From Candidatus Wolfebacteria bacterium (lineage in GTDB: Bacteria; Patescibacteriota; Minisyncoccia; Phycocordibacterales; GCA-2401445): DNA of 38,714 nt. The notes below the pieces were generated by a model. It was not told where the DNA came from, did no database searches, and saw only the letters and a list, made by a program, of their open reading frames with translations. This document shows, in pieces, positions 5,697 through 26,698 of this stretch; position 1 is the first letter of the stretch, and every line of letters starts with the position of its first letter. The DNA lies in NCBI GenBank assembly GCA_002401445.1, contig NVTD01000002.1:1-38714 (forward strand). The letters run 5' to 3'. The position numbers and the translations under genes were made by a program.

Positions 5697-6203
5697 CTAT
5701 TTCTCCAACACAACCCAACTAAAGCGAAGGCCTTTATCTGTGGTAATTTCTTCGCGAGATACTTCTGTTTTAAATTCTGGATAGTCTGGGAAGAAAGTAT
5801 CGGAATCTGGTACAGTGTCATCGATTAAGGTAAGATACATGCGATCTGTGAAGGGAAGAGATGTAGAATATATTTGTCCACCTCCTGCGACGAATACTTC
5901 CTCGGTGTCTTTACTGCGCGCGTATTTGAGCGCATCCTCAATCGAGTTAAAAATCTGAACTCCTTCTTCCTCAGGCTTCCATTCTGGATTGCGTGTAATA
6001 ACGATATTTTCTCGACCCTTCAAAGGGCGATATTTCGCTGGAATGGATTCATAGGTCTTACGACCCATAATAACTGGGTGACCCATGGTTGTGTCCATGA
6101 AGTGCTGCATGTCCTCTTTAGAACGCCAAATAAGGTCGTTCCCACGCCCTAATTCACGGTTACGTCCTATTGATGCTATGATACTAATCTTTGGATTGTT
6201 CAT
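5697..6203 (-). CDS. folA: Dihydrofolate reductase
   Basis: 168 residues from the preferred start. It reduces dihydrofolate to tetrahydrofolate with NADPH, regenerating the cofactor consumed by the thymidylate synthase nearby. Motifs: ISIIASIGRNRELGRGNDLIW (N-terminal strand and Met20-type loop), HPVIMGRKTYESIP, IVITRN, VFVAGGGQIY (the cofactor GG) and the YLTLID strand. An in-frame ATG 15 bases upstream (6218) exists. I prefer 6203 because MNNPKISIIAS matches the family start and because a minus-strand TACAAT hexamer ends 6 bases before it, which would make the upstream ATG untranscribed. It converges on rplK and diverges from the dCMP deaminase gene. Confidence 0.95.
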   Translation of the reverse strand: MNNPKISIIASIGRNRELGRGNDLIWRSKEDMQHFMDTTMGHPVIMGRKTYESIPAKYRPLKGRENIVITRNPEWKPEEEGVQIFNSIEDALKYARSKDTEEVFVAGGGQIYSTSLPFTDRMYLTLIDDTVPDSDTFFPDYPEFKTEVSREEITTDKGLRFSWVVLEK

Positions 6204-6205
6204 GG

Positions 6206-6219
6206 TATCATTGTACATA
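6206..6219. promoter_or_regulatory. Overlapping divergent promoters of folA and dCMP deaminase
   Basis: On the minus strand TACAAT (6215-6210) ends 6 bases before the folA ATG at 6203. On the plus strand TATCAT (6206-6211) or TACATA (6214-6219) precedes the ATG at 6224. The two starts are only 20 bases apart, so the promoters must overlap. Confidence 0.4.
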
Positions 6220-6223
6220 TCTT

Positions 6224-6715
6224 ATGGAAGAAGCAAAATACAACCGACCATCTTGGGATGATTATTTTTTTGAAATAACGGAAAGTGTGAGCCGACGCGG
6301 TACGTGTGATCGCGGTCGTGCTGGTGCTGTGATTGCTCGTGACAAACGCATACTTTCAACTGGATATGTTGGGTCACCAATAGGTAGTCCACACTGTGAC
6401 GACATTGGACACGAAATGCATATCGTAAAAGATGGAAACGGCAAAGAGACACAACATTGTATTCGCACATCACATGCTGAGCAGAATGTAATTGTGCAAG
6501 CTGCACGTAATGGCATCGCACTTGAGGGAGCAACGTTATATTGTAAAATGACACCCTGCTACACGTGTGCCAAAATGATTATAAATGCAGGAATTGTTCG
6601 TGTTGTTGCACTAAAGGACTACCACACCGCCGACCGCACAAAAGGTGTTTTTAAAGAGGCAGGAGTCCAGTTCGATTTACGTAGCAGTGAAATAGTAAAA
6701 TATAATAATCAATAA
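6224..6715 (+). CDS. Deoxycytidylate (dCMP) deaminase, ComEB-like
   Basis: 163 residues. It deaminates dCMP to dUMP, feeding thymidylate synthase. Zinc-site motifs are HAE (about 84-86, in RTSHAEQNVIVQAA) and PCYTC (about 111-115, in KMTPCYTCAKMIINAGI). The insert GSPHCDDIGHEMH is typical of the dCMP rather than the cytidine deaminase branch. A longer frame starts at TTG 6191, but its extra residues have no family match and would overlap the folA promoter, so the ATG at 6224 is chosen. The MazG-like gene follows after 1 base. Confidence 0.92.
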   Translation: MEEAKYNRPSWDDYFFEITESVSRRGTCDRGRAGAVIARDKRILSTGYVGSPIGSPHCDDIGHEMHIVKDGNGKETQHCIRTSHAEQNVIVQAARNGIALEGATLYCKMTPCYTCAKMIINAGIVRVVALKDYHTADRTKGVFKEAGVQFDLRSSEIVKYNNQ

Positions 6716-6716
6716 A

Positions 6717-7034
6717 ATGAGTGCAGATTTGAGACAATTACAGAAAGAGGTGTATCAAAATAAAATTGATAAAGGCTTTAATACTACTGATGTAGCAATG
6801 GAATTTTGTCGTGCACACGAAGAGCTTTCTGAAGCGTTTAAAAAATATAATGCAAAAGAAGATGGTGTACCCGAAGAGATGGCGGATGTTGCGATATTTT
6901 TACTCGGTATGGCAGAGATGCTTAATTTTGATCTCGAGAAAGAGATTGTACGTAAGGTCGCGATTAATAAAAAGCGTAAATATGAAAAAATAAATGGCGC
7001 GTGGATTCGTGTAGCAACAACAGAGGATCCTTAG
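6717..7034 (+). CDS. MazG-like nucleotide pyrophosphohydrolase
   Basis: 105 residues. The all-alpha NTP pyrophosphohydrolase motif is visible: EFCRAHEELSEAFKKY (the E-x3-E helix) followed by GVPEEMADVAIFLLGMAEML (the E-x2-D helix) and a basic VAINKKRKYEK end. Such enzymes split NTPs or dNTPs to the monophosphate and pyrophosphate, cleaning up non-canonical nucleotides. Its place directly after dCMP deaminase suggests a role in dCTP/dUTP turnover, but the substrate cannot be read from the sequence. Confidence 0.85.
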   Translation: MSADLRQLQKEVYQNKIDKGFNTTDVAMEFCRAHEELSEAFKKYNAKEDGVPEEMADVAIFLLGMAEMLNFDLEKEIVRKVAINKKRKYEKINGAWIRVATTEDP

Positions 7035-7055
7035 AGAGTTATAAAGAATATAAAC

Positions 7056-7086
7056 AAAAACAGCCCGTGAAGGCTGTTGTTTTTAT
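7056..7086. terminator. Terminator between the MazG-like gene and thyA
   Basis: AAAACAGCC and GGCTGTTGTTTTT form the stem, with A-rich and T-rich flanks that could serve both converging genes. Confidence 0.75.
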
Positions 7087-7089
7087 TAT

Positions 7090-7920
7090 CTAGACAATCA
7101 TCTCTGCTTTGATTGATGGATGATGCTCGTAATTTTCAAGTTTGATGTCGTCCATCGTGAAGTCATTAATATCCTTTATTTCAGGATTGAGCCAAAGCTT
7201 AGGTAGAGGAAATGGATCACGACTCAATTGCTCTTCGACAGCATCAAGATGTCCTTCGTAGATATGTGCATCATTCAATGTGATCACACATTCATGAGGA
7301 GTTCGTCCGGTTACTTGCGCAACCATAGCTAGCAACAATGCATATGATGCAATGTTGAACGGCACTCCAAGAAACATATCACAGCTTCGCTGCACCATGT
7401 GCACTGACAGCTTTCCGTCCGAACTACAGAAGAATTGGAACAACATGTGACAAGGGGGAAGTGCCATTTGGTCTATTTCCCCTGGGTTCCATGCGCTCAC
7501 AATTAATCGTCGGTCATACGGGTCTGTCTTTATTTTCTCAATTACTTTCGCAAGTTGATCAATAACAGTTCCATCAGGTCCACGCCAACCACGCCACTGC
7601 ACTCCGTAGATACGACCAAGGTCTCCGTCGAACTCTGCTTTTGGTTTCCAATAGTCAGCCTCTGCATTTGCTGTCCAAATGGTTTTATCTTTCCCAACGA
7701 GTTCTTTGAGACGATTGTCGTCATTGCTTCCTTCAATAAACCACAGCAATTCACTTTTGACTGCTTTAAATGCCAATTTCTTGGTGGTCATCGCAGGAAA
7801 TCCATCCTCGAGGTTAAATCGCATTTGATGTGCGAATACCGCTCTCGTTATTGCATTACGGGTTTGGCGTTTATCACCGTTGTCTCTAATATGGCGTACT
7901 ATGTCATTATATTGTTTCAT
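7090..7920 (-). CDS. thyA: Thymidylate synthase
   Basis: 276 residues. It methylates dUMP to dTMP using methylene-tetrahydrofolate. The catalytic cysteine is C157 in ALPPCHMLFQFF. Other motifs are RRLIVSAWNP, MVQRSCDMFLGVPFNIASYALL (phosphate and dUMP binding) and LNDAHIYEGHLDAV. The frame stays open upstream, but the ATG at 7920 (MKQYNDIVRHI) matches the family and is preceded by a good ribosome-binding site (GAAAGGA, about 8 bases away). It is divergent from tmk with a shared promoter region. With folA, dCMP deaminase, tmk and dut it forms a full dTMP supply set. Confidence 0.97.
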   Translation of the reverse strand: MKQYNDIVRHIRDNGDKRQTRNAITRAVFAHQMRFNLEDGFPAMTTKKLAFKAVKSELLWFIEGSNDDNRLKELVGKDKTIWTANAEADYWKPKAEFDGDLGRIYGVQWRGWRGPDGTVIDQLAKVIEKIKTDPYDRRLIVSAWNPGEIDQMALPPCHMLFQFFCSSDGKLSVHMVQRSCDMFLGVPFNIASYALLLAMVAQVTGRTPHECVITLNDAHIYEGHLDAVEEQLSRDPFPLPKLWLNPEIKDINDFTMDDIKLENYEHHPSIKAEMIV

Positions 7921-7952
7921 AATGTTCCTTTCAGGTTGTTTAATTACAGTTC

Positions 7953-7959
7953 TATTATA
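7953..7959. promoter_or_regulatory. Shared, overlapping -10 element of thyA and tmk
   Basis: TATTATA reads as TATAAT on the minus strand (7959-7954, toward thyA) and TATTAT on the plus strand (7953-7958, 11 bases before the tmk ATG). The two divergent genes would compete for the same bases. No strong -35 is seen on either side. Confidence 0.5.
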
Positions 7960-7969
7960 CACTTTATGC

Positions 7970-8599
7970 ATGTCTACGAAAAAAGCAAGCTTTATAGTCC
8001 TCGATGGAGGAGAAGGTGCGGGCAAAAGCACGCAGATTCAGGAAATCAAAAAGCATTTCGGCGACAGAATAGTCATTACTCGTGAGCCGGGAGGGTCTTT
8101 ATATGCAGAGGAGATACGCGGACTTATATTGGGTTCGGAGCATGCAGGACAAGCAAATGCAAAAACGCATTTTGCATTATTCTGGGCAGCACGAGCAGAT
8201 CATTTAAAAAACACAATTATTCCTGCGCTAGAATCAGGAAAGCATGTTGTATGTGATCGATTTGATTCATCAACATTTGCGTATCAAATATTTGGACAAG
8301 AAGCTCACGAACTTAAAGATTTTTTCTTTAGTATGCGTGACTTCTATTTAGGTGATTATAAGCCTGACCTGTATGTATTGCTTGATGTTGATCCTGAAAC
8401 TGGATTGGGACGTAAACAAAATCAAACAGGAGAGGTGTTGAATCATTTCGATGAACGACAAATATCTTTTCACACACGTATGCGCGAAGGATTAATAGAG
8501 TTTTTTGAACACGTACCGCATAAAATAGTTGATGCAAGACCAGAGTTTGATGTTGTAACAAAAGATCTTATTAGTGTGCTCGAAGCAGAGCTCAACTAG
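7970..8599 (+). CDS. tmk: Thymidylate kinase
   Basis: 209 residues. It phosphorylates dTMP to dTDP. The P-loop is GGEGAGKST (13-21). The DRx motif is VVCDRFDSSTFAYQ, and the TREPGGSLYAEEIR segment binds dTMP. Longer in-frame starts exist from 7880, but they would cover the thyA promoter and ribosome-binding site. The ATG at 7970 gives the family N terminus (MSTKKASFIVLDGGEG). The stop is separated from the dut ATG by one base. Confidence 0.95.
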   Translation: MSTKKASFIVLDGGEGAGKSTQIQEIKKHFGDRIVITREPGGSLYAEEIRGLILGSEHAGQANAKTHFALFWAARADHLKNTIIPALESGKHVVCDRFDSSTFAYQIFGQEAHELKDFFFSMRDFYLGDYKPDLYVLLDVDPETGLGRKQNQTGEVLNHFDERQISFHTRMREGLIEFFEHVPHKIVDARPEFDVVTKDLISVLEAELN

Positions 8600-8600
8600 T

Positions 8601-9029
8601 ATGATTCTCAAGGTCAAAAAGTTATCAGGAAGCGAGGATTTGCCGACAGTGGCATATGCACATGATGGTGACGCGGCTTTTGATCTATACGCAAGCAAGC
8701 GAATTTCTATTGAGCCACACGAGCGAGTACAAGTACCCACCGGTATTGCACTCGCTCTTTCTTTTGGGTACGCGGGACTTATTTGGGACAAGAGTGGTTT
8801 GTCACACAAACATGGACTACGCACTTTGGGAGGAGTAGTCGATGCAAGTTACCGTGGGGAAGTGATGGTCGGGATGATTAATCTTTCAGACGAAACATAT
8901 GTTTTTGAGAGAGGGAATAAGGTAGCACAAATGGTTATTCAAAAAGTAGAGCATTGTGAGATTGAGGTCGTGGATAATTTGGATGATACCTCTCGCGGAG
9001 AGAGTGGATTTGGAAGCACGGGCAAGTAG
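8601..9029 (+). CDS. dut: dUTP diphosphatase (dUTPase)
   Basis: 142 residues, trimeric type. It hydrolyses dUTP to dUMP and pyrophosphate, keeping uracil out of DNA and feeding thyA. All five motifs are present in order: GDAAFDLYA, WDKSGLSHKHGL (normally PRSGLA), GGVVDASYRGEV, FERGNKVAQMVI and RGESGFGSTG. The D-x-SG form of motif 2 is a modest departure. The ATG at 8601 is chosen over an upstream start inside tmk. A strong promoter for another transcript overlaps the dut stop codon. Confidence 0.94.
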   Translation: MILKVKKLSGSEDLPTVAYAHDGDAAFDLYASKRISIEPHERVQVPTGIALALSFGYAGLIWDKSGLSHKHGLRTLGGVVDASYRGEVMVGMINLSDETYVFERGNKVAQMVIQKVEHCEIEVVDNLDDTSRGESGFGSTGK

Positions 9030-11160: not shown

Positions 11161-11433
11161 ATGAATACTAAAACAAATATCATTGGCCTTAAAGAGCTTA
11201 GAGAAAATACTGAAAAATATATCGCCCAAGTGAGTAAGGGAAAGTCTTTTACTGTGGTGAAGCGTTCTCGTCCTGTATTTAAAATGATACCTGTGGATGA
11301 GTGGGGAGATGAGGGGCATTGGGAAACGTTGCTTGATTTGACAAAAGGAAAAGATAAAGGGATTACCGCTGAAAAACTTCTTGGGTATATTAAAGAATAT
11401 AATGACAAGCAAGATCGAAAAGTTTCTTCGTAA
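11161..11433 (+). CDS. Phd/YefM-type antitoxin
   Basis: 90 residues. The N-terminal segment TNIIGLKELRENTEKYIAQVSKGKSFTVVKRSRPVFKMIPVDEW follows the Phd/YefM fold pattern (a beta strand, the L-R-x-N helix, then the F-x-V-x-x-R-S-R-P-V-F strand). This half dimerises and binds the operator, while the C-terminal helix would wrap the toxin. The ATG at 11161 coincides with the predicted transcription start. The toxin gene overlaps its last 32 bases in another frame, typical translational coupling. The direct repeats over the promoter are likely its binding sites. Confidence 0.85.
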   Translation: MNTKTNIIGLKELRENTEKYIAQVSKGKSFTVVKRSRPVFKMIPVDEWGDEGHWETLLDLTKGKDKGITAEKLLGYIKEYNDKQDRKVSS

Positions 11434-11641
11434 GTTAAATTCGCGAAGGAGAAAAATTTTAGGTGGAACACTACTGCGGATGACTAGGGGAAATTTTGAG
11501 GGTTTGCATGTCAAAAAACTTGAGGGGTTTGCTAATCGTTATCGTGTGAGAAAAGGGGATATTCGTATAAAATATTCTCTTGATAAAAATAATAAAGCAG
11601 CAGAAATTGAAATAGAGTGGCGTGGTGACACCACGTATTAA
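11402..11641 (+). CDS. RelE/ParE-superfamily toxin
   Basis: 79 residues from the ATG at 11402. It is a small, very basic protein with pattern MTSKIEKFLRKLNSRRRKIL (two helices), then HVKKLEGFANRYRVRKGDIRIKY and KAAEIEIEW strands, matching the RelE/ParE fold (K-L-x-G..YR-x-R-x-G-D-I-R). RelE members cut mRNA on the ribosome and ParE members poison gyrase, and the sequence alone does not decide. Overlap with the upstream antitoxin supports a toxin-antitoxin pair. The earlier in-frame start at 11381 is a TTG and less likely. Confidence 0.82.
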   Translation: MTSKIEKFLRKLNSRRRKILGGTLLRMTRGNFEGLHVKKLEGFANRYRVRKGDIRIKYSLDKNNKAAEIEIEWRGDTTY

Positions 11642-12653: not shown

Positions 12654-15539
12654 ATGGCCAAAGAAAATACAGAAGATAATAAAGAAAAAAGCACATTAGT
12701 TCTAAAAGAGGAGAAAATCCTTGATTTTTGGCGTGAAAAAGATATTTTCAAAAAAACTCTAGAAAAAGAGTCGCCCGAGGGAGAGTTCGTATTCCATGAT
12801 GGACCTCCGTTTGCAACCGGAGCCCCTCACTATGGGCATCTTGTTGCGAGCGCTATTAAGGACGCGATACCTCGATATAAAACGATGCGTGGATTTCATG
12901 TTGACCGAAAATGGGGATGGGATTGTCACGGGCTTCCAATTGAAAACATTGTAGAGAAAGAGCTTGGAACAAAAAGCAAAAAGGATATTGAGAAAATTGG
13001 CGTAAAGAAGTTCAATGAATTATGCCGTGAGAAAATCTTTACGTATATAGATGTGTGGAATGAATTCATTCCACGGTTTGGACGATGGGCTGATATGGAG
13101 AATCCATACAAAACCATGGATACGAGTTTTATGGAGAGTGAGTGGTGGGCTTTTAAAGAACTCTATGACAAAGGACTTGTGTATGAGGACTTTAGATCAA
13201 TGCATATTTGCCCTAGATGCGAGACAACACTTGCGCAATCAGAAGTAGCGGAAGGATACAAAGATATTAAAGATCTCGCAGTAACTGTTAAGTTTCAATT
13301 AAAGGATGAACCAAAGACATTTTTACTTGCATGGACGACAACACCGTGGACTCTTCCTGGGAATGTCGCACTTGCTGTGGGTAGTGATGTTAAATATGTA
13401 AAATGGCATGTTGGTGATACTGCTTTTATATTAGCGGAGGCACAAGCACAAAAGTATTTTCCAGATTTTACTCGAGAGGACTCGAGAGCAGAAGATATTT
13501 CTGTAGAGAGTCTGATTGGAAAAGAGTATATTCCGCCGTTTGATTCATATGTTAATGATGAATCATTAAAGAATCGAGAAAATGGTTGGAAAATATATGC
13601 AGTTGATTTTGTGACAGATGATTCTGGAACGGGAATAGCACATGAAGCACCAGCGTTTGGAGCAGAAGATTTAGAATTGGCCCAAAAAGAAAATATTCCA
13701 GTTATTAAACATGTAGGTATGGATGGAATTATTGCCTCAGAGGTGAAAGAACTCGCTGGTCTATCAGTAAAACCAATCGACGATCATCAAGCAACGGATG
13801 TTGCTGTTATCAAATACCTTGCCGGTAAAGATCTATTATTCTCAAAAGAAAAGTATGAACACTCGTATCCACATTGTTGGCGTTGTGATACACCGCTTAT
13901 TAACTATGCTACTAGTTCATGGTTTGTTGCTGTCCAGAAAATAAAGGACGGATTGGTACAAAATAGTAGTGAAATAAAGTGGTCACCAGAACATATAAAG
14001 AATGGTAGGTGGGGAGGATGGATTGACGGTGCACGAGATTGGTCTATTTCACGTCAACGATTCTGGGCGAATACTATTCCAGTGTGGCGATGTGGTTCAT
14101 GTAAAAAGGAAAGAGTCTTTGGAAGTGTTGCTGATTTGCAGACCGCTAGTGGAAAAGAAGTAACAGATTTACATAAAGATATAGTTGATGATGTGATTGT
14201 AAAATGCGAGTGTGGTTCTGATATGCACCGTGTTCCTGACGTATTAGACACATGGTTTGATTCTGGTTCTGTTCCATATGCGGCACATCACTACCCATTT
14301 GAGAATAAGGAAAAAGTAGAAACTAATACTCCTGCTGACTTTATTGCAGAAGGACAAGACCAAGTAAGTAAATGGTTTTACTACCAGCATGTATTGGGAG
14401 AAGCACTGTTTAATAAGCCCGCGTTTAAAAACGTAATAGTAAACGGGATTGTTGTGTCTGAAGTGGATGGCAAAAAATTAAGTAAACGTCTCCAAAATTA
14501 TCCAGATCCACAATTACTTATTGATAAGTACGGAGCGGATGCTGTGCGGCTATATCTACTGTCGTCACCAGTTGTGCGGGCAGAAAATCTTACTTTCAAA
14601 GAGGGTGGAGTAGATGAAGTTATGAAAAAAGTTATGGCTCGGTTGCATAATGTACTTTCATTTTACGAATTATATAAAGACAGCGTTAAACACGGGGCAA
14701 CGAGTAGTTCAACAAATATTCTTGATCAATGGATTGTTGCACGACTTAATCAGACAGTAGAACAAGTAACAAGTGGTATGGAAGAGTATGAACTGGATCG
14801 TGCTACGAGACCGCTTACAGAGTTTGTCGATGATCTTTCTACTTGGTACATCAGACGAAGTCGTGATCGATTCAAAGGAGATGATGAGGAGGATAAGAAA
14901 TTGGCGCTAGGGACAACGCGGTTTGTAATGCGTGAGTTTGCAAAAGTACTTGCACCGTTTACTCCGTTCATAGCAGATCACTTATACCTTGCTCTTGGGG
15001 GAGAAAAGGAGAGTGTACACCTTGATGTCTGGCCGGAAATAAAAGCTGCGGATAAAGTAGTTCTTGAAACCATGTCTGAGGCACGACGTATTGTTTCGCT
15101 AGCACTTGAATTGCGTGCAAAGGAGAATATGAAAGTACGACAACCTCTTGCAAGGCTTACTGTAAAATCAACTCCTTTTTTTGATGAAATGGTTTCAGTT
15201 ATCAAAGATGAAGTTAATGTAAAAGAAGTTGTATTTGACGAGTCTCTTTCGGAAGATGTGGCTCTTGATACGGTACTGACCCCAGAATTGAAAGCAGAGG
15301 GACATGCGCGAGATTTAATTCGTACTATTCAAAGTTTGCGCAAACAAGAGAAATTGTCGCCTTCAGATATTGTTCAACTGGCAATACAAACCGACGAAAA
15401 AGGCAAAGCTTTGGTGGAGAAATTCAAAGAAGAAATTGAAAGAGTTGCTTCAGTAAACATATCTTTTGAGAATGTGTCATCAGAACCTTTACTCATAGAA
15501 GAAATGTCATTTGCTCTAGCAATAACAATAACCACCTAG
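12654..15539 (+). CDS. ileS: Isoleucyl-tRNA synthetase, eukaryote-like type
   Basis: 961 residues, class I. The first signature is HYGH (59-62) in DGPPFATGAPHYGHLVAS, and the second is KLSKR (608-612) in GKKLSKRLQNY. The motif WGWDCHGLPIENIVEKELG and the GPPFATGxPHYGH form mark the type found in eukaryotes and in a minority of bacteria, not the HIGH form PYANGxxHIGH of the common bacterial enzyme. The editing CP1 domain (about 200-400) has the TTPWTLPGN and DSGTGIAHEAPAFGAED motifs. A cysteine-based zinc site is visible in CP1 (CPRCETT, CWRCDTP) and CGSCKKE. No C-terminal zinc finger of the bacterial type is seen. This enzyme type is associated with mupirocin insensitivity, which would be an inference here. 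Confidence 0.95.
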   Translation: MAKENTEDNKEKSTLVLKEEKILDFWREKDIFKKTLEKESPEGEFVFHDGPPFATGAPHYGHLVASAIKDAIPRYKTMRGFHVDRKWGWDCHGLPIENIVEKELGTKSKKDIEKIGVKKFNELCREKIFTYIDVWNEFIPRFGRWADMENPYKTMDTSFMESEWWAFKELYDKGLVYEDFRSMHICPRCETTLAQSEVAEGYKDIKDLAVTVKFQLKDEPKTFLLAWTTTPWTLPGNVALAVGSDVKYVKWHVGDTAFILAEAQAQKYFPDFTREDSRAEDISVESLIGKEYIPPFDSYVNDESLKNRENGWKIYAVDFVTDDSGTGIAHEAPAFGAEDLELAQKENIPVIKHVGMDGIIASEVKELAGLSVKPIDDHQATDVAVIKYLAGKDLLFSKEKYEHSYPHCWRCDTPLINYATSSWFVAVQKIKDGLVQNSSEIKWSPEHIKNGRWGGWIDGARDWSISRQRFWANTIPVWRCGSCKKERVFGSVADLQTASGKEVTDLHKDIVDDVIVKCECGSDMHRVPDVLDTWFDSGSVPYAAHHYPFENKEKVETNTPADFIAEGQDQVSKWFYYQHVLGEALFNKPAFKNVIVNGIVVSEVDGKKLSKRLQNYPDPQLLIDKYGADAVRLYLLSSPVVRAENLTFKEGGVDEVMKKVMARLHNVLSFYELYKDSVKHGATSSSTNILDQWIVARLNQTVEQVTSGMEEYELDRATRPLTEFVDDLSTWYIRRSRDRFKGDDEEDKKLALGTTRFVMREFAKVLAPFTPFIADHLYLALGGEKESVHLDVWPEIKAADKVVLETMSEARRIVSLALELRAKENMKVRQPLARLTVKSTPFFDEMVSVIKDEVNVKEVVFDESLSEDVALDTVLTPELKAEGHARDLIRTIQSLRKQEKLSPSDIVQLAIQTDEKGKALVEKFKEEIERVASVNISFENVSSEPLLIEEMSFALAITITT

Positions 15540-15556
15540 CTAGTAGGTGGTTATTG
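15527..15556 (+). terminator. Terminator hairpin overlapping the ileS stop codon
   Basis: AATAACCACCTA (15527-15538) and TAGGTGGTTATT (15544-15555) form a perfect 12-bp stem. The ileS TAG lies at the top of the left arm. The T tract is short. Confidence 0.6.
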
Positions 15557-15581: not shown

Positions 15582-15643
15582 GAGGTGAGTTTGAACCCCA
15601 CATATTAACCTCAGTACGCCGAAAAGGCAGGAAGGATTACATC

Positions 15644-16288
15644 ATGCAAAAACTAGTGTTTTTGTTAGTAAGTTTAATTAGTGCGCCATTAGTTAATGGG
15701 CAAGTCATATCTGAATTTAGTTTCGATATCTCAATCGGTATTGAAGCAACGATCGCACCGGATAGTCAGCCAGATAATGCAGTGGTAAGCGACTTCAGTC
15801 GCGGGAGTGGAATTAATAGCGTGTTTGGATCAGGTACGTTTCCGGGGAACAGTTGGACTCTTGCAAGTACACTAGACCCGAATGACTATTTTTCAGTAAC
15901 GCTCTCACCAAATTCAGGATTCAGTTTAGATCTGACAAGTATTGTGTTTGACGAAAGAAGATCCGGAACAGGTATTCGAGAGTGGTCATTGTTTTCTAGT
16001 GCTGATAATTTTGCTACAGGAATCACGTCGGTTTCTGTTCCAGATAATACGGATACGCGCACTCAGAATACAGTAAATCTTGGATCAAGTTTCACTGGTC
16101 TGACAGATACTACTGAATTTCGTTGGTATGGATTCTCAGCTGAGTCAGGAGTGGGTACATGGAGATTGGATAATGTTGTACTCAACGGGAGTATCACAGC
16201 AGTTCCTGAACCTTCTACGTATGCGCTTGCAACAGCTGTTGTCCTTATAGGATTTGGTATTGTACGTCGTAAATGCCGACATAGGTAA
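15644..16288 (+). CDS. PEP-CTERM sorting-signal exported protein
   Basis: 214 residues. It has a signal peptide (about 1-19, MQKLVFLLVSLISAPLVNG), then a beta-rich, Ser/Thr/Asp-rich body with few lysines (about 20-185). The C terminus is AVPEPSTYALATAVVLIGFGIVRRKCRHR: a VPEPST motif, one hydrophobic helix and a basic tail, which is the complete PEP-CTERM tripartite signal. Such signals are cut and processed by exosortases in biofilm- or EPS-producing bacteria such as Verrucomicrobia and Proteobacteria. The body resembles the extracellular jelly-roll-like proteins of those groups. No exosortase is in this window, and the system is not typical of Patescibacteria, so recent acquisition is likely. 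The ATG follows AGGAAGGA with good spacing. Confidence 0.85.
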   Translation: MQKLVFLLVSLISAPLVNGQVISEFSFDISIGIEATIAPDSQPDNAVVSDFSRGSGINSVFGSGTFPGNSWTLASTLDPNDYFSVTLSPNSGFSLDLTSIVFDERRSGTGIREWSLFSSADNFATGITSVSVPDNTDTRTQNTVNLGSSFTGLTDTTEFRWYGFSAESGVGTWRLDNVVLNGSITAVPEPSTYALATAVVLIGFGIVRRKCRHR

Positions 16289-16307: not shown

Positions 16308-16338
16308 GCCATCGTTCACTTTGAACGGTGGTTTTTTC
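16308..16338 (+). terminator. Intrinsic terminator after the PEP-CTERM gene
   Basis: CCATCGTTCA and TGAACGGTGG (one G·U pair) are followed by TTTTTT. The right arm overlaps the recO -35. Confidence 0.75.
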
Positions 16339-16356: not shown

Positions 16357-16932
16357 ATGTATGACGTACACACTACAGAAGGAATAGTTCTAGCCAGTAC
16401 CGGTATAGGAGAGGCGAATAAACTTGTAACATTGTTTACGTCAGATTTTGGTTTGGTATATGCAACAGCGCAAGGTGTGCGACTACAAAAATCAAAATTA
16501 CGATTTCGTCTTGTTGATTATTCTGTAATATCCTTATCTCTTGTTCGTGGAAGAGGGAGGTGGAGATTAACAAATGTACTCGAGGACGATAGCTCTATCA
16601 AAAAAAATCAAGATATACTTCTGTTTCGTGCGAGGATTGGTTCTTTATTAAAAAGACTAATTCATGGAGAAGAATCAGATCCAACATTGTTCAGTATTCT
16701 CAATGAGTCATTTAAATCTGCTAGTAGTGCAAACGCTGATGATATAGAGTATATTGAGACACTTACTGTTTTACGTATGCTTAATCGCTTGGGGTATATT
16801 GGAGACAAGAAATTGGTAGCATCATACTGTGAATCTGAAGACATAACGAATGATATGGTTCAAGATATAAAGTCTGGCAAAAAAGATATTGTGAGAATTA
16901 TAAATATGGCTCTCAGAGAAAGTCAGCTTTAA
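16357..16932 (+). CDS. recO: DNA repair protein RecO (short form)
   Basis: 191 residues against about 240 in E. coli. The N-terminal OB fold is clear: YDVHTTEGIVLASTGIGEANKLVTLFTSDFG, then ATAQGVRLQKSKLRFRLVDYS. The C-terminal helical part is shortened, and the usual zinc-binding cysteines are not evident. RecO loads RecA on SSB-coated gaps, and ssb and recA are both present further along this window. The track's longer start at 16321 would lie within the promoter, so the ATG at 16357 is used. Confidence 0.82.
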   Translation: MYDVHTTEGIVLASTGIGEANKLVTLFTSDFGLVYATAQGVRLQKSKLRFRLVDYSVISLSLVRGRGRWRLTNVLEDDSSIKKNQDILLFRARIGSLLKRLIHGEESDPTLFSILNESFKSASSANADDIEYIETLTVLRMLNRLGYIGDKKLVASYCESEDITNDMVQDIKSGKKDIVRIINMALRESQL

Positions 16933-24361: not shown

Positions 24362-25795
24362 ATGGCAAAAGAAAAGAATACATTTTATATAACGACTCCT
24401 ATTTTCTATCCAAATGCGGAGCTACATATGGGGGGTGCTTATACGACCACCCTCTGCGATATTTTGGCACGTTATAATCGAGCTCAAGGTAAGGAAGTAT
24501 ATTTCCTAACTGGTGCTGATGAAAATACTGAGAAGGTTGTTCGCGCTGCAGAAAGTGCGGGTGAAGAGACCGGAGCGTATCTTAATAGTATTGTTGCAAA
24601 GTTCAAAGATCTTTTTGGGTTGCTAAATATTGAGTACGATCAATTTATACGTACATCAGACAAGGAAAATCATTGGCCTGGTGCGAAGCTTGTATGGAGG
24701 CAATTAGAGGAAGCAGGAGATATATACAAGTCTTCATATAATGGATTGTATTGTGTTGGTCATGAAGCCTTCATGACAGAAAAGGATTTAGTGGATGGGA
24801 AGTGTCCTGATCACAACGAAGAACCCCAAGTAATTGAAGAGGAGAATTATTTCTTCCGTCTTTCGAAATACACGGAGGTGCTGAAAGAAAAAATTGAGAG
24901 TGATGAGTTAGTGATACTTCCGAGTGAACGCAAGAACGAAATATTGTCACTGCTAAATGACGGGTTAGAGGATATTAGTTTTTCACGACCAAAAGACAAA
25001 GTAACTCTGGGTATTCCTGTTCCTAATGATCCAGAACAGGTAATGTACGTGTGGTGCGATGCCCTCACTAACTATATTAGTGCATTAGGGTATGGTCGAG
25101 AGAGTCAGTTGTTTGATAAATTCTGGCCAGCTAATGTCCATGTGATTGGGAAAGATATATTACGTTTTCATGCAGCGATATGGCCGGCGATGTTGTTGTC
25201 TGCAGGGTTACCATTACCAAAAACTATTTTGGTGCATGGAATGATTACATCCGGAGGAAAGAAAATGTCAAAGACATTAGGAAATGTAATTGACCCTACA
25301 AATTTAATCGATACACATGGAGGTGAGGCTGTGAGGTATTTTCTTGCGCGTCACATCTCTACATTCAACGATGGAGATATAACCACAGAGCGTTTTCATG
25401 ACGCATATACTGCGGATTTGGTAAATGGTATTGGGAATCTTACAAATCGAATTCTTAAAATGTCAGAAACACATCTTACTTCTGGTGTGGTTCTTGACGA
25501 TGTAGTCTATCCCGAAGAGTATGACAGTGCATTTAGAGAGAACAATGTTCAAAAGGCTACAGAATATGTGTGGAAGCAAATAGGGGATTTAGACCAAAAG
25601 ATTCAAGATACAGAACCGTTCAAATTGGTTAAAGAAGATGTCGAGAAAGCAAAGACACTAATTGAAGAACTCGTTCAAGAACTAAACGTTATTGCGATAT
25701 TGCTTGTACCAATACTTCCCGAAACTTCAGAAAAGATTATCGCGGCTATTAAGGAAAACAAAAAACCTGAGGAGCCACTGTTTCCGAGGAAATAA
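24362..25795 (+). CDS. metG: Methionyl-tRNA synthetase, with an altered HIGH motif
   Basis: 477 residues, class I, lacking the C-terminal EMAP-like tRNA-binding extension. Family pattern: TTPIFYPNAELHMGGAYTTTLCDILARYNR, then KMSKT (301-305, in GGKKMSKTLGNVIDP). The signature HIGH is HMGG (22-25): the second histidine is glycine. Other family residues are normal, including FLTGADENTEKV and WCDALTNYISALGYG. The zinc knuckle is reduced (single YCVGHEAFMTEKDLVDGKCPDH). It is probably active, since both first His and KMSK are kept, but the substitution is worth noting. Its start is abutted by a hairpin. Confidence 0.95.
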   Translation: MAKEKNTFYITTPIFYPNAELHMGGAYTTTLCDILARYNRAQGKEVYFLTGADENTEKVVRAAESAGEETGAYLNSIVAKFKDLFGLLNIEYDQFIRTSDKENHWPGAKLVWRQLEEAGDIYKSSYNGLYCVGHEAFMTEKDLVDGKCPDHNEEPQVIEEENYFFRLSKYTEVLKEKIESDELVILPSERKNEILSLLNDGLEDISFSRPKDKVTLGIPVPNDPEQVMYVWCDALTNYISALGYGRESQLFDKFWPANVHVIGKDILRFHAAIWPAMLLSAGLPLPKTILVHGMITSGGKKMSKTLGNVIDPTNLIDTHGGEAVRYFLARHISTFNDGDITTERFHDAYTADLVNGIGNLTNRILKMSETHLTSGVVLDDVVYPEEYDSAFRENNVQKATEYVWKQIGDLDQKIQDTEPFKLVKEDVEKAKTLIEELVQELNVIAILLVPILPETSEKIIAAIKENKKPEEPLFPRK

Positions 25796-25885
25796 TCCTT
25801 CGGCAGGCTCAGGACGAGTTCCTTCGGTGGATTCGACAAGCTCACCACAGGCAAGTCCTTCGGTAAACTCAGGACCAAAGGCTTA
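25796..25885. repeat. Cluster of CCTTCGG...CTCAGGA short repeats
   Basis: Three imperfect copies are present: TCCTTCGGCAGGCTCAGGA, TCCTTCGGTGGATTCGACAA and TCCTTCGGTAAACTCAGGA. They follow the metG stop directly. Repeats of this kind are widespread in intergenic DNA of assembled candidate-phylum genomes, and nothing shows a function. Confidence 0.6.
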
Positions 25886-25895
25886 GGACATATAG

Positions 25896-25922
25896 AAAAA
25901 ACGAGCATGGCTCGGTTTTTCT
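25896..25922 (+). terminator. Intrinsic terminator
   Basis: AAAAAACGAGC, loop ATG, GCTCGGTTTTT. Confidence 0.8.
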
Positions 25923-25927
25923 TTGTG

Positions 25928-25936
25928 TGATATAAC
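25928..25936 (+). promoter_or_regulatory. Extended -10 promoter, probably leaderless
   Basis: TGaTATAAC ends 6 bases before the ATG at 25943. Confidence 0.45.
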
Positions 25937-25942
25937 TCCATT

Positions 25943-26698
25943 ATGCAGATCATACCAATACACACACGTGTGCTGACTCCACCAAAAGATGATTTACTTG
26001 AGGTGATTAAGGAATCAATCTCTGAAATAAATGAGAAGAGTATTTTGGTTGTATCGTCTAAGGTCGTGGCGATACATGAAGGAAGATGTATCTCATCTGA
26101 AAAAATAGATAAAGTAGATTTAATTAAACAAGAAGCAGATAAATATTTACCAAATGATGTAACTCCTGACAGAAAGTATCCTGTTACTATTACAAATCAC
26201 GTCATACTTGGAAGTGCTGGCGTAGATGAAAGTAATGGAAACGGATATTATATTTTACTTCCCAAAGATTCTATGAAATCTGCTGAGGAGATAAGAGATT
26301 TTATAAAAAGTGAATATCATGTAAAAGATGTTGGTGTAATAATTACTGATTCATATTCAACACCAATGCGACGCGGGGCAATAAATATTTCATTGGGATA
26401 TGCTGGATTCAACCCACTCGTTGATTATCGTGGAGAGAAAGATATTTTTGATCGTTCTTTCCAAGTATCTGTCGCGAATGTTGTAGATGGATTAGCAGCT
26501 GCGTCTGGGGTTTCGATGGGAGAGGGTAGTACACAGACTCCGCTATCAATGATAACCAGCCTCCCTAAAAGTATAGAGTTCACGGAAGTGAATACAATGG
26601 CAAAAGATTTAGATTTCTTTGTTGATATGGAGAGTGATCGTTTTAAATTCTTATTGGATAAACTCCCGTGGCAAAAAGGAGGAAGTGATGTAAAGTAA
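25943..26698 (+). CDS. F420-0:gamma-glutamyl ligase-like protein
   Basis: 251 residues, near the usual length of the family. Motifs: the N-terminal IIPIHTRVLTPPKDDLLEVI, ILVVSSKVVAIHEGRC, and the metal/nucleotide-binding DVGVIITDSYSTPMRRGAINISLGYAGFNPL and DGLAAASGVSMGEGSTQTPLSMI. This matches the F420-0:gamma-glutamyl ligase (CofE-like) fold, which adds glutamates by an amide bond using GTP. No other F420 genes are visible. Members in bacteria without F420 have been proposed to act on folates, which fits folA and thyA in this window, but the substrate is inferred only. The tatD gene follows after 4 bases. Confidence 0.85.
   Translation: MQIIPIHTRVLTPPKDDLLEVIKESISEINEKSILVVSSKVVAIHEGRCISSEKIDKVDLIKQEADKYLPNDVTPDRKYPVTITNHVILGSAGVDESNGNGYYILLPKDSMKSAEEIRDFIKSEYHVKDVGVIITDSYSTPMRRGAINISLGYAGFNPLVDYRGEKDIFDRSFQVSVANVVDGLAAASGVSMGEGSTQTPLSMITSLPKSIEFTEVNTMAKDLDFFVDMESDRFKFLLDKLPWQKGGSDVK

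Follow-up and report, generated by a model that had tools for sequence, protein, structure and literature searches.

A PEP-CTERM gene between ileS and recO

The window, by which we mean the whole 38,714-nucleotide stretch of DNA analysed here, begins with the first base of a contig 65,429 bases long. The genome that holds it amounts to 1,122,306 bases in 62 contigs and is reported to be 100% complete with 1.64% contamination. Within the window, a single open reading frame for a PEP-CTERM protein stands between ileS and recO (Table 1), and it is the sole match in its own genome, whether searched with the protein or with the PEP-CTERM model.

Table 1. Features of the locus that carries the PEP-CTERM gene (window coordinates).
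Feature	Position	Strand	Basis
ileS, native left flank	12654..15539	+	family scan; adjacency in relatives
Perfect 13-bp inverted repeat (hairpin) across the ileS stop codon, at the left edge of the insert	15526..15556	.	repeat search
Shine-Dalgarno-like site AGGAAGGA, rare in the window	15629..15636	+	start-site comparison
Open reading frame of the PEP-CTERM protein, 214 aa	15644..16288	+	read directly; Pfam PF07589; NCBIfam TIGR02595
Signal-peptide-like start, residues 1-19, cleavage site guessed	15644..15700	+	inspection and hydropathy
Ectodomain, predicted beta sandwich, residues 21-185	15704..16198	+	weak structure model, fold comparisons, alignment to the Opitutaceae protein
PEP-CTERM domain (VPEPST motif and hydrophobic helix), residues 186-209	16199..16270	+	profile matches
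Basic tail RRKCRHR	16265..16285	+	read from sequence
Terminator-like hairpin with T run, 3' of the PEP-CTERM gene	16308..16338	+	1 found against 0.7 expected by chance
recO, native right flank	16357..16932	+	family scan; adjacency in relatives

An earlier note on this DNA had described a complete VPEPST motif, a hydrophobic helix, a basic tail and a signal-like start, and this description held up. The Pfam family PF07589 matched the PEP-CTERM domain over all 24 model positions with a score barely above the cut-off (21.5 bits against 20.7; E 2.4e-4), and the NCBIfam model TIGR02595 gave 19 bits against a cut-off of 16; the signal-like N-terminus was judged from hydropathy and by eye. A chance match is unlikely because the motif lies at the exact C-terminus, a signal-like start is present and a full-length homologue from Opitutaceae has the same architecture. 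The same family search found matches in none of 14 control genomes.

The middle of the protein is polar and probably beta-rich. A weak structure model (pLDDT 51.5, pTM 0.53) places a beta sandwich before a terminal helix; a model built on the Opitutaceae homologue did not improve on it (pLDDT 52.6), and a sequence search of solved structures with the window protein reached a best E of 0.18. Fold comparisons with the weak model returned the BcsB subunit of cellulose synthase (Z 10.1, rmsd 2.8 over 116 aligned residues), regions of reelin and of meprin MAM (Z 9.4 for both, rmsd 3.2 over 121 residues and 3.1 over 123) and CBM32 (Z 9.1, rmsd 3.3 over 130), so that MAM and reelin domains, which do not bind glycans, score as high as carbohydrate-binding modules. 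Going by these matches, the ectodomain perhaps binds glycans and the window copy may be an adhesin.

Comparison of recO loci across relatives revealed the setting of the gene. We used the best 30 of the 55 matching genomes (58 searched), of which one is the window's own locus and 29 are others. Among these 29 loci, 25 have ileS at most 1.5 kb upstream of recO: the two genes abut (-31 to +69 bp) in 19 and are 284-1289 bp apart in six. In the remaining four, no ileS was seen over that distance. In the window, 817 bp lie between the two genes, and this interval contains the PEP-CTERM gene. These results indicate that the gene is a single-gene insert in native ileS-recO DNA, in keeping with the view of the earlier note that the flanking genes are native and joined. 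The same note had raised the worry of contamination or a chimera; a contaminant contig is now ruled out, since the flanks are the two halves of the conserved ileS-recO junction. That an assembly chimera or contamination nevertheless put the gene at this site is hardly credible: although the insert has a perfect hairpin at its left edge, both flanks belong to one conserved junction, the GC3 of the window copy is like that of its host, and equivalent genes stand on contigs of at least 100 kb in 10 genomes, one of them a single contig of 981,549 bases.

Several other candidates were rejected. A phage or plasmid origin was not supported, as we found no phage match and one match to a cyanobacterial plasmid at 29%, and 21 pattern matches to relatives in viral contigs yielded no confirmed case. 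As for the leader, a search for riboswitches and other known RNAs gave none in the window at the gathering level, and near the gene only chance-level matches.

Relatives and composition of the window copy

A search for the closest relative, as the earlier note had proposed, led to a PEP-CTERM protein (221 aa) from a metagenome-assembled genome of Opitutaceae (Verrucomicrobiota), which is 36% identical over residues 2-213; no other relative of nearly full length turned up in the GTDB-based collection. It matches the window protein in length and architecture and ends in a VPEPST tail. The two genomes differ in that seven places match the window protein in the Opitutaceae genome and one in ours, and the two genes in that GC3 is 0.70 in the Opitutaceae homologue and 0.29 in the window gene. 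The family of the window protein was matched in 18 of 80 sampled genomes of the Opitutaceae genome's family, in the first of them at seven places, and nine short homologues from these genomes have a GC3 of 0.58-0.79. In addition, a Flavobacteriales protein has the ectodomain in common with the window protein at 31% identity, within a larger protein. By eye this protein appears to end in a T9SS-type tail, so that one ectodomain would occur with two sorting tags.

The insertion in native DNA and the Opitutaceae homologue both support the suggestion of the earlier note that a foreign-type surface protein arrived here by lateral transfer. The same note had considered that the transfer may be recent, and this part was not borne out: the GC3 of the window gene, 0.29, is the same as that of its neighbours, even though a foreign-looking Shine-Dalgarno site is kept (such sites precede 2 of the 21 other starts in the window). 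Its codon-usage likelihood lies about 1.5 sd below the neighbours' mean but within their range, with one of 22 genes lower. The window gene is either an old, adapted transfer or one from an AT-rich donor, and the retained Shine-Dalgarno-like site does not decide between the two.

PEP-CTERM and T9SS tags in the order

It has been reported (Haft 2006, PMC1569441) that PEP-CTERM is strictly paired with exosortase. The earlier note had regarded this system as not typical of the radiation, and the search for an exosortase that it had proposed left the window's own genome with no recognisable one: neither PF09721 nor TIGR04178 gave a match over cut-off there, although the positive controls matched. 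Beyond this genome, PF09721 exceeded its cut-off in none of 60 relatives and in none of 397 genomes of the order (with four sub-threshold matches), and TIGR04178 in none of 48 small genomes (with three sub-threshold matches), namely 44 PEP-positive genomes and the four with weak PF09721 matches. In donor-type controls, by contrast with the window genome, TIGR04178 found five places over cut-off in the Opitutaceae genome and three in a Flavobacteriales genome. The window protein thus shares a VPEP motif, a hydrophobic helix and a basic tail with the proteins of the PEP-CTERM/exosortase (EpsH) system, and its start is signal-like, whereas the enzyme is not recognisable in its own genome or in the 397 genomes of the order; and where that system has several tagged proteins per genome, there is one here and one or two in the other PEP-positive genomes of the order. 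What would have made the gene ordinary, an exosortase together with many PEP-CTERM genes in close relatives, is therefore not what these genomes contain. Searches of the open-licence literature on PEP-CTERM or exosortase in Patescibacteria, the Candidate Phyla Radiation and Parcubacteria turned up nothing on orphan PEP-CTERM genes; in PMC11393006, PEP-CTERM is mentioned only within a reference title.

A sample of 286 genomes from the phylum contained an exosortase in four, PEP-CTERM in eight (the window's own included) and both in none. The four genomes with exosortase-family proteins (G605, G525, G746 and G680; loci L131-L134) belong to other classes of the phylum and have PF09721 matches over cut-off and no PF07589 match. 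These counts bear on the possibility that the cell itself cuts the tail with a transpeptidase or protease that goes unrecognised, which would amount to a working sorting system in another guise. The PEP motif and helix have been kept in the window copy despite its host-like composition, and exosortase-family proteins do occur in those four genomes. However, none of the four is among the eight PEP-positive genomes of the sample, within the order neither exosortase model exceeded its cut-off (in 397 genomes for PF09721 and 48 for TIGR04178), and one or two tagged proteins per genome are few for a dedicated system. We consider such an enzyme improbable.

The window copy is not an isolated oddity. 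At least 42 of the 397 genomes of the order, in 34 of 179 genera, hold PEP-CTERM genes, one or two per genome (53 matches); 42 is a lower bound because the order-wide search missed a match in genome G016 that another search found. Three further places from that other search (a second in G002 and one each in G016 and G035) brought the genes analysed to 56. The genomes of the order are listed at 0.4-1.2 Mb, which fits the inference of the earlier note that this DNA is Patescibacteria-like. Most of the 56 genes are alike in the tail only, and homologous full-length pairs are about 28-53% identical. GC3 is higher than in flanking open reading frames for 49 of the 56 (mean difference +0.19, Wilcoxon p 1.3e-9, with genes in one genome not independent), and 38 of 56 exceed their flanks by over 0.15, as against 20 of 287 flanking frames. 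Of the genes on contigs of at least 100 kb (14 of the 56), 13 exceed the GC3 of their flanks by over 0.1. Furthermore, Shine-Dalgarno-like sites precede 32 of 50 intact PEP-CTERM genes and 31 of 240 flanking frames (Fisher p 4e-13), where taking the longest ATG frame as the flank start lowers the flanking count. PEP-CTERM genes thus recur in exosortase-less members of the order and most copies bear foreign signatures, which points to separate, repeated acquisitions.

Some insertion sites coincide. Genomes G009 and G092 carry homologous PEP-CTERM genes between the same neighbours (secG/groES, read from sequence), and G035 and G098 carry non-homologous ones between the same neighbours (yebC/ruvB, likewise read from sequence). 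We make no claim that slots are reused because, by a rough reckoning, 56 inserts over about 700 intergenic sites give about two chance coincidences. Open reading frames that we take to be prepilin-like, from a motif written as a regular expression, make up 7 of 107 adjacent frames and 2 of the 193 more distant ones (Fisher p 0.011), a suggestive enrichment of putative prepilins beside PEP-CTERM genes. At one locus of genome G320 (L095, G320:C15:53000-62000), two PEP-CTERM genes and a third gene with VPEMST lie on the opposite strand between look-alikes of rpsS and rplB, and two of these three tagged secreted proteins have a near-identical signal sequence and different ectodomains.

As a control for the specificity of PEP-CTERM, we looked for the T9SS C-terminal domain in 297 genomes of the order, and it exceeded its cut-off in 26. 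None of these 26 genomes gave a match to the T9SS translocon SprA, which was found in the Flavobacteriales control. These proteins thus resemble the PEP-CTERM proteins in carrying a sorting tag without its machinery; they differ in the tag, in the likely donors and in showing no GC3 contrast with their flanks (among the matches listed, 26 genes were fetched, 25 of them comparable with flanks, and GC3 was above the flanks in 9 of the 25, p 0.12). The occurrence of orphan T9SS tags favours a general capture of secreted proteins over a mechanism specific to PEP-CTERM, and the orphan-tag pattern may reflect general gene capture. One small genome, G034 (L145-L150), has ten T9SS C-terminal-domain proteins of flank-like composition and no SprA. 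The window's own genome bin includes a T9SS-tagged gene on a 10.8-kb contig, where the gene and its flanks have 27-28% GC as against about 40% in the window; this contig is probably contamination.

The two kinds of tag belong to unrelated machineries and both are machinery-less in the same order, as might be expected if the tag were read by a partner, the protein being delivered to an exosortase-bearing host and mounted on the host's surface. The signal peptide would, however, have the protein exported from the small cell by Sec, the delivery route is hypothetical, and simple capture accounts for the same facts; we regard this reading as very improbable. Likewise very improbable is its general form, a cross-species sorting in which symbiont-like bacteria repeatedly adopt the surface proteins of their partners and keep the PEP-CTERM or T9SS tag for mounting by the partner.

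More weight is due to the explanation that the gene is a functionless passenger, taken up at random from PEP-CTERM-rich neighbours, with short self-contained genes entering by donor abundance and later being lost. Most copies are compositionally foreign and mutually unrelated, five or six of the 56 look truncated or lack a signal, the flanking frames have their own GC3 outliers, and the T9SS-tagged orphans are present too. Against it, 50 of the 56 genes are intact with a signal-like start. Moreover, the window copy is host-like in GC3 and yet has an open frame and an intact tag, while in a neutral simulation none of 200 frames remained open at any of the four starting GC3 values, a result that is informative only if the donor was not AT-rich. 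We consider the passenger explanation unlikely.

Proposed fate of the protein and further features of the window

The account that we favour, with moderate confidence, is that of a laterally acquired, Sec-exported protein whose uncut PEP-CTERM tail serves as a membrane anchor and whose displayed ectodomain is perhaps glycan-binding. A gene from the PEP-CTERM family found in Opitutaceae would have entered between ileS and recO; its product would leave the cytoplasm by Sec, with removal of the signal peptide, and the hydrophobic helix and basic tail would act as a stop-transfer anchor. As the genome has no recognisable exosortase, the tail is most likely never cut and the membrane tether should be permanent. 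The beta-sandwich domain would then be exposed outside the cytoplasmic membrane, where it may attach to glycans on a partner cell or in the partner's matrix. Export, anchoring, glycan binding and a benefit to the cell are the parts of this account that we infer.

An order of small-genomed bacteria that repeatedly holds PEP-CTERM proteins without a recognisable exosortase stands in contrast to the strict pairing by which PEP-CTERM is defined, and an annotation that takes the tag by itself as a sign of an exosortase system would be wrong here. Orphan tags raise the question of whether a sorting tag may act simply as an anchor or even be recognised by another species. In addition, orphan PEP-CTERM genes are possible tracers of the DNA exchange partners, and hence the hosts, of cells that can hardly be cultivated.

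Other features of the window deserve mention. At starts other than that of the PEP-CTERM gene, Shine-Dalgarno sites are rare and a TANNNT box often lies 10-13 bases before the start codon (for example at 84, 1949, 5145, 9305, 16357, 23225, 26703 and 28399), as if many genes of the window were transcribed leaderless. Upstream of recO we noted TTGAAC-18-TATAAT, ending 6 bases 5' of the ATG. By eye, a small overlapping pair at 11161-11641 looks like a toxin-antitoxin system of the Phd/RelE type, and the region 5697-9029 resembles a cluster for dihydrofolate reductase, dCMP deaminase, thymidylate synthase, thymidylate kinase and dUTPase. Finally, a frame on the minus strand at 25675-25965 contains repeated LVLSLPKD and perhaps represents a short palindromic repeat family.
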